From Sphingomonas sp. 28-63-12 (GTDB lineage: Bacteria; Pseudomonadota; Alphaproteobacteria; Sphingomonadales; Sphingomonadaceae), in contig NCGD01000024.1 in NCBI GenBank assembly GCA_002281535.1, positions 1-64,000 on the forward strand: a DNA stretch of 64,000 bases, given 5' to 3'. The position numbers and the translations under genes are program-made. Position 1 is the stretch's first letter; every line of letters starts with the position of its first letter. Below are positions 35,146-40,034 of the stretch, piece by piece. The notes under the pieces are model-generated. The model did not search any database. It had not been told where the DNA came from and saw nothing but the letters and a program-made list of their open reading frames with translations.

Positions 35146-37323
35146 TTACTGACGGGGCGTTACCGACGGGGCCGACAAGCGCCAGGGATGGCGATCACCT
35201 GCCTGCCTGACGGTAACGATCCGCCCGCTGCCAAGCGTAATGGCGATCCCGCCCGTCTCTGCCAATATTGGCCGGTCGAGCCGCAACCAGAGCGGTCGGC
35301 AGCGCCGGGGCAAGCGCCGTTCACTGATCACGATATCGGCCTGCAAGCAGGCTGCAATGAGCGCCGCCGAGGGGACGGGATAGGCACTACGCGTAGCAAT
35401 GATGCGCCAGCGCCTGCCGCCTACCATCCTGTCAGCAAGGCACAAGTCGCGGCTGCACCGCGCCGCGCGCTGTTCCGCCAGGAAAGTCGGTTCGCCATCG
35501 ATACCGGCATTCTCGGCCAGCATCATCCGCGTGTAATCGCCCGCCCGGTCGCGCAGCAGGGCAATGTCGCCGTCATCGGTGCGCAGTGCCAAATGGCGCC
35601 CGTCGGCCGTGACGAGCAGATCGGGCGGCGGGGTCAGCACCGCCCAACCCGCGCCGATCACAATCGGCAGCGCAGCAACCAGGCGTATGCGCGTGCGCCA
35701 CAATGCCAGCCAAAGGCCGCCGACAACCATTAGCGCATAGGCACCATCGGGCATTGCCGGGAGCGCCGCCACGGCGCCGGGTGCATTGGCGACAAGGTGC
35801 GCCATCGCCAGTAATTGCCCCAATGCCTGACCTACAAGCCACCAGAACGGCCAGCCGAGCCCAACAAGATCAAAGAGGAGCGCAAGCGCCTCGATCGGCA
35901 TGACGACAAAGGTGGTCAGCGGGATGGCAACAATGTTGGCGACAGATCCGTATAACCCCGATTTGTGAAAGTGATAAAAGGCGATTGGTGAAAGCGCTGC
36001 TTCGACGACAATGCCGGTGAGCAGCAGAGAGGCGAGTTGACGGGCGAGCCAAGCAGCGCGACTCTCGTCGCGCGCTGCGAACCAGCGCTTGACGCGCGGC
36101 GCTTCGTGCAACGCAATGATTGCGGTCACAGCGGCGAACGACAGCTGAAAACTCGGCCCCGCCAGCGCCTCCGGCCAGAACAGCAATACGATGATCGCGC
36201 CCGTCGCCACCAGCCTGAGCGTAACCGCCTCGCGCCCAAGCGCCACCGCCAGCAGCACCATCAGCGCGGCAACGCAGGAACGCACGGTCGGCACTTCCGC
36301 ACCGGTCAGGATTGTATAGCCGATCGCGGCAACCGCGCCTGCGCCCGCGGCGATCAGCGGCAGGCGCCAATGGAGCGCGAGCCAGGGGCTCAGCGCTAGT
36401 AACCGGAGCACCAGCATCATGACGATGCCGACCACGGCAGTGATGTGCAGGCCGCTCACCGAAAGCAAATGCGTCAGCCCCGCGCGGCGCATCGCTTCGG
36501 CATCATCGAGCGGAATCGCACCCTGGTCGCCAGTGGCGAGCGCTGCGGCGATGGCGCCGGCCCCGCCTGACACCTGGGAACGGATATGCGCCGACAGCCG
36601 CGCACGCAGCCCACCGCCAGCCGCGTCGCCGGGCGAGACGATCACGATCGGGCCAAACCCGCGCCCGGTTGCGCCGATCCCATCAAACCAAGCGACACGT
36701 GCATAGTCATAGGCACCCGGCACCGATGGCGGCGGCGGCGGAACGAGCCGGGCACTGAGCAGGATCACCGCTCCCCTTGACAGACCGGCAGGAAAATCGG
36801 CCGCTTGCAGATTGAGGCGAAGATGGCGGGGCAGCCCGCTCGCCGACGCGCGACCCAGCCAGCCGACGATCTTCGACGGCGCCAGCCGAAGCCGGACGAG
36901 ACCGCGCGGCGGAAGTGGTTCGACCCGCTCGACCCGCGCCTCAAAGCGCACAATGACCGGCTCAGCAAGTGGGGCGCTCGACACGCGCTCCGCCCGTGTC
37001 CAGATCAACGCCATCCCAATCGACATCGCCGCGCAGGCGATTACTACAACCCGCGTGCCGCGCCCCCCGCGATCGACTGCCAGCGCCAGCAAGGCGGTCG
37101 CGGCAAGCGCCAGCAACACGGTGATCCAGGACGGCGAATCGGGCAGCCACAGCCATGCTGCGACACCAAGCCCGAGCATCACCGGTACCCACAGGTAAAG
37201 CTGGTCGCGCTCCGCTTCTAGCCAGCGCTCGATCTGGGCCAGGCTTCGGGCCAAACGATAGCCCACCGCAGTTTGAAGCGGAGCAAGGGCCGTGCTAGAG
37301 GCGCGCGTGGCTGAACTGGCCAT
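35146..37323 (-). CDS. comEC: ComEC/Rec2-family membrane protein
   Basis: 725 residues. An N-terminal DUF4131-type region has three membrane segments and a soluble OB-like part (about 115-230). The competence domain follows (about 255-560) with [10 protein letters not shown] at about 285, PTVRSC at about 345 and about eight membrane segments. The last 150 residues lack the HxHxDH motif of a metallo-hydrolase domain. ComEC forms the channel for single-stranded DNA during transformation. Other com genes are not in the window. It is divergent from gltX, with the ComEC start about 60 bp before the gltX ATG. Confidence 0.9.
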
Positions 37324-37381: not shown

Positions 37382-38725
37382 ATGAACACGCCCGTCGCCC
37401 AGTCGCCGGTCGTCACGCGGTTTGCGCCGTCCCCTACCGGGTTTCTTCATATCGGCGGCGCCCGCACCGCGCTGTTCAACTGGCTATTCGCCCGGGCTCA
37501 GGGCGGCAAATTCCTGCTGCAGTTCGCCCGCGCCGCGCGCCACGCCGAAGTTGCGCGCCAGTTGCTCGACGCTGGCCAGGCCTATAAATGCTACTCGACC
37601 GCCCAAGAGCTGACCGCTATGCGCGAAGCGCAGCAAGCAGCCAAGCAGCCAGCGCGCTATGATGGCCGCTGGCGCGATCGGGACCCAGCCGACGCGCCAA
37701 CCGATGCACCGTTTGTCGTACGGATCAAGGCACCTCGCGACGGCGCGATGACGATCCTTGATCGCGTCCAGGGCGAAGTGACCGTCCAGAATGCCGAGCT
37801 CGACGATTTCGTGCTGCTCCGCTCCGATGGCACGCCAACCTATATGCTCGCCGTGGTCGTCGACGATCACGACATGGGCGTCACCCATGTCATTCGGGGC
37901 GATGATCATTTGAACAACGCCTTCCGCCAAATCCCGATCATGCAGGCGATGGATGCGATCGAGGGCGGCTGGCCGGTGCCTGTTTATGCGCATATCCCGC
38001 TGATCCACGGCACCGATGGCGCGAAAATGTCGAAGCGGCACGGCGCCGTCGGCGTCGATGCCTATCGCGATACGCTGGGGATCCTGCCCGAAGCGCTTGA
38101 TAATTACCTGTTGCGGCTTGGCTGGGGCCATGCCGATGACGAGATCATCAGCCGCGAACAGGCGATCGCATGGTTTGATCTTTCAGGAGTCGGAAAATCA
38201 CCATCTAGGTTCGATTTGAAGAAACTGGAGAACCTGAACGGTCATTACATCCGGCTCGCGGACGATGATCGACTGGCTCACTTGATCGTCGACCGGATCG
38301 GGGACGATATTGGTACGGCTGGATACGACCTGCTGAAACGCAGCATGCCCGTGCTCAAGCCGCGAGCCGCCAATCTGCTCGAACTGGCCGATGGTGCGGC
38401 ATTTTTGTTTCGCACCCGCCCTCTACAGATGGACAGCGACGCAGCGTCCCTTTTGGCCGGTGAGGCCCCTGCTCTGCTCGCTCGGCTGCACGCCGCGCTT
38501 GACGCGCTGGGTGACTGGGATACGGAAGGCTTGGAAAATGCGGTCCGGCAGGTTGCCGAGGCGGCGGGAGTAAAGCTCGGCGCGGTCGCACAACCATTGC
38601 GCGCCGCACTGACGGGGAAGAAGACGTCGCCGGGGATTTTCGACGTGCTCGTATTGCTCGGGCGGACGGAAAGCCTTGGCCGGATTGCCGACCAGATGGC
38701 CGATACGATGGCTGCCGGGGCGTGA
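37382..38725 (+). CDS. gltX: Glutamyl-tRNA synthetase with internal in-frame deletion
   Basis: 447 residues. The HIGH-type motif (FLHIGG, about 21-26) and KMSKR are present, and C-terminal anticodon-binding domains follow. After GGKFLL (ending at residue 46) the sequence jumps to [12 protein letters not shown]. In other GltX proteins about 35 residues stand here, including the conserved (R)IEDTD segment and the helix up to the WLGL-type block. The reading frame is intact across the junction at 37519/37520. The missing part belongs to the catalytic Rossmann fold and glutamate-binding region, so activity is doubtful unless a second gltX exists. Start ATG 37382; gltA follows. Confidence 0.85.
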
Positions 38726-38750: not shown

Positions 38751-40034
38751 ATGACCGATATCGCAAAGCTCATCATCGATGGCGCTGAGAACGACTATAA
38801 AGTGGTCTCAGGCAGCGTCGGTCCGCAGGTCATCGATATTCGCAAACTTTATGCGCAGACCGGCAAGTTCACCTTCGATCCCGGCTTCACCTCGACCGCG
38901 AGCTGCGAATCGGGCCTAACCTATATCGATGGCGACGAAGGTGTGCTGCTGCACCGCGGCTACCCGATCGGCCAGTTGGCCGAACAGTCGAGCTTTATGG
39001 AAGTGTCCTACCTGCTGCTCAACGGCGAGCTGCCGAGCGGCGACGAGCTTGAGAAGTTCACCTACACCATCTCGCGTCACACCATGCTGCACGAACAGCT
39101 GATGACCTTTTATCGCGGCTTCCGCCGCGATGCACATCCGATGGCGATCATGTGCGGCGTCGTTGGCGCGCTCAGCGCTTTCTATCACGATTCGACCGAC
39201 ATTACCGATCCGTACCAGCGGATGGTCGCGAGCCACCGGCTGATTGCCAAGATGCCGACGATTGCAGCCGCCGCCTACAAATATTCGGTTGGTCAACCCT
39301 TTGTCTATCCGAAGAATTCGCTCAGCTACACCGGCAACTTCCTGCGGATGACCTTTGGCGTGCCGGCCGAGGAATATGTCGTCAACCCGATCGTCGAAAA
39401 GGCGCTTGACCGGATTTTCATCCTGCATGCCGATCACGAACAGAACGCGTCGACATCAACAGTCCGGCTCGCCGGATCGTCGGGCGCGAACCCCTTTGCG
39501 TGCATTGCGGCGGGCATCGCCTGCCTGTGGGGACCTGCACATGGGGGTGCCAATGAGGCCGCGCTCAACATGCTGCGCGAGATCGGCACGCCGGATCGCA
39601 TTCCGCACTATATTGCCCGGGCGAAGGATAAAAATGATCCGTTCCGTCTGATGGGCTTCGGTCACCGTGTGTACAAAAATTATGATCCGCGCGCGACGGT
39701 GATGCAGCAGACGGTGCGCGAAGTGCTGGGCGAACTGGGCGTAACCGACCCGATCTTCGATGTCGCGCTGCAGCTCGAGGAAATGGCGCTGAGCGATCCT
39801 TATTTCATCGAGAAAAAGCTGTTCCCGAACGTCGATTTCTATTCGGGCGTGATTCTGTCGGCGATCGGCTTCCCGACGACGATGTTTACAGCATTGTTCG
39901 CGCTCGCCCGCACCGTCGGCTGGGTTGCGCAATGGAATGAGATGATTGCCGATCCGGAGCAGAAGATCGGTCGCCCGCGCCAGCTCTATACCGGGCCGAC
40001 CCAGCGCGATTATCCGCCACTCACCGCGCGATAA
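38751..40034 (+). CDS. gltA: Citrate synthase
   Basis: 427 residues, the length of type II (hexameric, Gram-negative) citrate synthases. An N-terminal beta-rich domain (about 1-60, [14 protein letters not shown]) precedes the all-helical core. The catalytic residues are His in [12 protein letters not shown] and [13 protein letters not shown], and Asp in VDFYSG. It condenses acetyl-CoA and oxaloacetate to start the TCA cycle. ATG 38751 has AGAGGGA upstream; it follows gltX by 25 bp and may be co-transcribed with it. Confidence 0.97.

Follow-up and report, generated by a model that had tools for sequence, protein, structure and literature searches.

The glutamate--tRNA ligase gene gltX (gltX1; 37382..38725, forward strand) of Sphingomonas sp. 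28-63-12 lacks a 105-bp segment that its orthologs have, and this gap is most likely an error in the record, whether an assembly or consensus error or a trace of minority or chimeric molecules. The gene lies in a 64,000-nucleotide stretch of contig NCGD01000024.1 (assembly GCA_002281535.1), hereafter the window, to which all positions refer. It is recorded as one open frame from an ATG at 37382 to 38725, which encodes 447 amino acids with matches to TIGR00464, PF00749 and PF19269. The initial annotation described an in-frame loss of about 35 codons; translation, DNA and alignments agree on a loss of exactly 35, between 37519 and 37520. In the DNA at 37505-37528 the codons for LL abut those for QF directly, nucleotide alignment with three orthologs (L042, L041 and L036) gives a single clean gap of 105 columns at 37519/37520, and the ortholog proteins are 35 amino acids longer at this junction. 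A single instance of the 24-base string over the junction is present in the window, where chance alone would be expected to give none. As the same annotation stated, the reading frame is kept across the gap, and the translation retains the motifs that we take to be HIGH-type (HIGG, 37448..37459, forward strand) and KMSKR (38024..38038, forward strand).

The lost segment is the one that carries RIEDTD, as had been claimed: 35 residues are present in the orthologs and none here. Absent from the short protein are the strand end with RIEDTD (second strand), the helix after it and a loop. On the predicted structure of L042, the closest relative, which is intact (mean pLDDT 90.6), the missing residues are 47-81 and take in the last part of strand 43-48, all of helix 58-70 and the loop. 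Across 109 comparison rows the segment is among the best-conserved parts of the GltX protein, with R, E, D, T, D, R and S each conserved in 107-108 rows. We take the E of RIEDTD to be Glu41 of Thermus thermophilus, which presumably binds the amino group of glutamate; literature searches on the role of Glu41 and for a gltX deletion in Sphingomonas returned nothing on point. AlphaFold2 still predicts a GluRS-like fold for the short protein, with a pTM of 0.78 versus 0.86 for L042 and a TMt to T. thermophilus 1j09 of 0.80 versus 0.88. Model confidence is 80 versus 95 at residues 41-50 and 76 versus 90 at residues 11-20. As AlphaFold2 judges deletions poorly, these figures are weak evidence. A protein without the RIEDTD strand and helix would not be expected to activate glutamate, and a working gltX in the living organism would most likely carry the 105 bp.

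In all other respects the gene is an ordinary GltX1 of a Sphingomonas-like bacterium, a predicted tRNA-Glu-charging GluRS. Its product scores 420.5 bits against TIGR00464 (cut-off 289.95; 496.8 for the intact relative L042), contains the class I catalytic domain PF00749 with HIGG inside it, and has an intact anticodon-binding domain PF19269 (residues 316-437; 38327..38692, forward strand; 113.1 bits in the domain search). Identity is 72-83% to the GltX1 set of close relatives and 30-38% to the second paralogs, and the nearest loci that carry a name in the collection search are from Sphingomonas and other Sphingomonadales records. Two other assignments were ruled out: GluRS2 (GltX2), because the protein groups with the GltX1 set and the genome's own GltX2 is a separate gene, and GluQ-RS, because the TIGR03838 score of 173.1 bits is below the cut-off of 276.7 and the anticodon-binding domain is present. 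The flanking open reading frames are also ordinary. The downstream gene (38751..40034, forward strand), which from its sequence we take to be gltA, presumably encoding citrate synthase, has 94% amino acid identity to its counterpart in relative G319 (dN/dS 0.063), and the divergent upstream gene (35146..37323, reverse strand), which on the same basis we take to be ComEC-like, has 77% (dN/dS 0.123).

The rest of gltX shows no decay. Among 177 positions at which at least 97% of orthologs agree, only 1 is changed, which ranks the gene 27 of 102 rows after ten rows (L001, L003, L104, L106, L107, L109 and L111-L114) were dropped before the count. Against G319, the genome of L042, dN/dS is 0.073, compared with 0.027-0.158 for 18 other window genes, and lineage-unique changes in gltX and L042 with five outgroups are 18/14, 16/11, 14/13, 12/14 and 11/16. 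If gltX has been unconstrained at all, a rough upper bound on that period is approximately 2.5% of the branch that leads from the L042 split, assuming an equal dS split and simple counting. These four measures led us to reject an old pseudogene. Three readings fit this: a gap of very recent origin, an erroneous record, or a product that selection still maintains. A reduced or altered role, as raised in the initial annotation, finds no support, given that outside the gap the gene evolves as a GltX1 normally does.

The segment is encoded by all 109 ortholog loci examined (L006-L114), of which 29 came from 60 relatives searched and 80 were kept from 96 by a collection search; some may be duplicates from one genome (for example, L006 and L036). 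The protein alignment (112 rows: window gltX, the genome's own GltX2, its own GluQ-RS-like gene and the 109 loci) has exactly 35 residues at the gap position in 107 loci, compared with 34 in the genome's own GltX2, 35 in its GluQ-RS-like gene and 0 in window gltX. In the other two loci, L104 and L106, the frame is broken, and tblastn recovers the segment from a different frame in each. When 295 genomes of the genus were searched at the DNA level, the source genome gave the only listed match across the junction; listed matches in the other genomes that reach the junction stop or start there. A loose junction pattern, which is strict on position and would let a differently placed deletion escape, hit 36 places in 32 of 396 genomes of the order, with gltX among them only here. 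The 35 other places had no significant similarity to GltX (best E 0.08; the positive control worked). A search of the assembly for the missing piece gave no second location for it, and the idea that it had moved was rejected, since apart from weak scraps the matches were GltX2, the GluQ-RS-like gene and window gltX only. A scan of viral contigs with the left flank gave 0 matches, and phage records gave none. Separately, the gltX coding sequence runs through three frames in the complete chromosome of Sphingopyxis sp. PET50 (L106 5001-6376) and through two in a metagenome-assembled genome (L104 2963-4275), and both cases are likely to be sequencing errors in this same gene.

The case for an error also depends on whether the cell could do without GltX1. 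The assembly has only three PF00749 genes, namely GltX1, GltX2 and a GluQ-RS-like candidate of 294 amino acids (G000:C54); the PF00749 search found no GlnRS, and GatB and both tRNA-Gln genes are present. In Table 1 of Dasgupta and Basu (PMC3927822), 45 of 69 alphaproteobacteria combine two GluRS with GatCAB and lack GlnRS. According to the same article, the working GluRS2 of Helicobacter pylori and Acidithiobacillus ferrooxidans charge tRNA-Gln and not tRNA-Glu; the specificity of GluRS2 in alphaproteobacteria is put forward there as the authors' extrapolation. With no GlnRS, GatB present and GluRS2 published as specific for tRNA-Gln, GltX1 should be essential here. The main text of a Rhodobacter Tn-seq paper (PMC5513736) does not name gltX.

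The initial annotation proposed that a second, complete glutamyl-tRNA synthetase might compensate. Such a gene was indeed found by genome search, as GltX2 at G000:C50:5972-7309 is complete with HVGN, RIDDTD and KLSKR and approximately 37% identical to GltX1 where aligned, but it is not a special rescue. In 59 of the 60 relatives (all but G020) the listing includes a second match, at 30-38% identity, that we take as GltX2; the working GluRS2 in the published work charge tRNA-Gln and not tRNA-Glu (PMC3927822); and the gene shows no acceleration. Fast compensatory evolution of GltX2 was accordingly rejected (24 versus 23 changes). A GltX1-level match is likewise listed in 59 of the 60 relatives. 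The exception, G007 of the same genus (84% complete, 610 contigs), has only the second paralog among the matches listed, probably because its assembly is incomplete.

An assembly error at 37519/37520, also suggested at the outset, is favored because a conserved active-site segment is lost in a single draft genome while the rest of the gene is undecayed. With a short protein predicted not to activate glutamate and a GltX1 that should be essential, the record would be wrong at this junction. The DNA shows no repeat that would explain a misjoin. The break points of the gap share at most one base, and the sole local direct repeat, of 11 nt at 37487 and 37523, retains both copies, so the usual overlap or repeat misjoin is not visible; slippage between direct repeats was rejected on the same grounds. 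Further points counted against an error are that the gap preserves the frame exactly, for which chance gives 1 in 3, that it stops at a structural boundary, that AlphaFold2 still builds a GluRS-like fold, and that the surrounding sequence is clean. The closest relative is syntenic over approximately 46 kb, in which there are no other deletions of at least 6 amino acids on the window side, and the only other sizeable differences are insertions of 6-7 amino acids in three window genes. A small and hence weak control, in which 50 genes from the assembly were aligned to a sample of G010, showed no clean loss comparable to the gltX gap. One alignment of 1069 amino acids had gaps of 24 and 12 amino acids, and nine others had 1-7 stop codons, which all fall within the first 58 columns in five, as expected of queries reaching upstream of the start, and are scattered in four, which may be wrong-frame query ORFs. 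Even so, the segment is present in the relatives compared and the remainder of the gene is in good order, which makes a new kind of enzyme far less likely than an assembly error or a very recent lesion.

The best-surviving alternative, possible but doubtful, is that the 105 bp were genuinely and very recently deleted and this copy thereby inactivated, with an intact gltX1 in the unassembled part of the genome or with the deletion confined to a doomed or mixed subpopulation. The junction without an obvious misassembly signature is consistent with this, as is the state of the assembly, which comprises 3.48 Mb in 54 contigs at 94.78% completeness and yields no tRNA-Glu. It has 39 tRNA matches, of which 38 could be typed, and none of the 38 is a tRNA-Glu (with either anticodon), tRNA-Asp or tRNA-Ile. 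At least one tRNA-Glu gene was found in each of nine other genomes searched. To our knowledge tRNA-Glu is indispensable to every cell, so its absence, like that of tRNA-Asp and tRNA-Ile, is put down to an incomplete assembly from which essential pieces are missing. However, the assembly has one gltX1 only, a duplicate would be unusual, and no second close GltX1 is among the matches listed for the relatives. Two side observations concern tRNA genes. At approximately 145581 of G000:C34 (L316, L318), synteny with the closest relative ends at the end of tRNA-Ser(cga), a pattern suggestive of an island bordered by a tRNA gene; the relative has tRNA-Glu(ctc) approximately 160 bp further on, where C34 has unrelated sequence. 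ARAGORN calls no tRNA at G000:C13:6207-6274 (L286), where a tRNA-family match of 45.5 bits exceeds the cut-off.

It is unlikely that the deletion is genuine and the product still active as a GluRS, or that GltX2 has taken over the charging of tRNA-Glu in this lineage. A working short enzyme would account for the conservation of the rest of the protein, and the predicted GluRS-like fold would be compatible with it; against this, the strand with the conserved E of RIEDTD, to which we assign the role of Glu41, is gone, and the modeled confidence drops around the gap (residues 41-50 and 11-20, and pTM). A takeover could draw on the complete motifs of GltX2, but GltX2 shows no rate shift and the H. 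pylori and A. ferrooxidans enzymes, as described in PMC3927822, do not charge tRNA-Glu. Likewise unlikely is a fixed deletion in which the short GltX1 is selected for a non-charging or altered role and a GltX2 of widened specificity charges tRNA-Glu; this would give a GluRS without the strand that we take to bind the amino group of glutamate. If the gap were real and the protein functional, a core aminoacyl-tRNA synthetase could lose an active-site strand and helix or, alternatively, a tRNA-Gln-specific GluRS2 could take over tRNA-Glu. A GluRS subfamily defined by the short form, whether already described or lineage-specific, and shared by relatives as the initial annotation had allowed for, is highly improbable, with no supporting point found, 0 of 109 ortholog loci sharing it and no other gltX recovered by the junction pattern in the 396 genomes of the order.

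An error in the record thus remains the preferred reading, and the main lesson is to check the reads first when an essential gene in a draft genome shows a clean in-frame gap. Automatic annotation would label the short protein a normal GltX, given that it scores above the TIGR00464 cut-off. Among known systems, GluQ-RS (YadB; TIGR03838) has the catalytic fold in common with the window gene, which differs in scoring below the family cut-off and in having an anticodon-binding domain. Of the alphaproteobacterial GluRS2/GltX2 the source genome has a typical, complete example on C50 (P0001), and the window gene is the other paralog, approximately 37% identical. The closest system is GltX/GluRS1 (TIGR00464; 8i9i of Escherichia coli and 1j09 of T. 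thermophilus): the window gene is above its cut-off with motifs and anticodon-binding domain intact, the predicted fold of the short protein matches GluRS structures, and Sphingomonadales orthologs are 60-83% identical (tblastn). From this system it differs by the 35 residues that form the RIEDTD end of the second strand, the helix and the loop.
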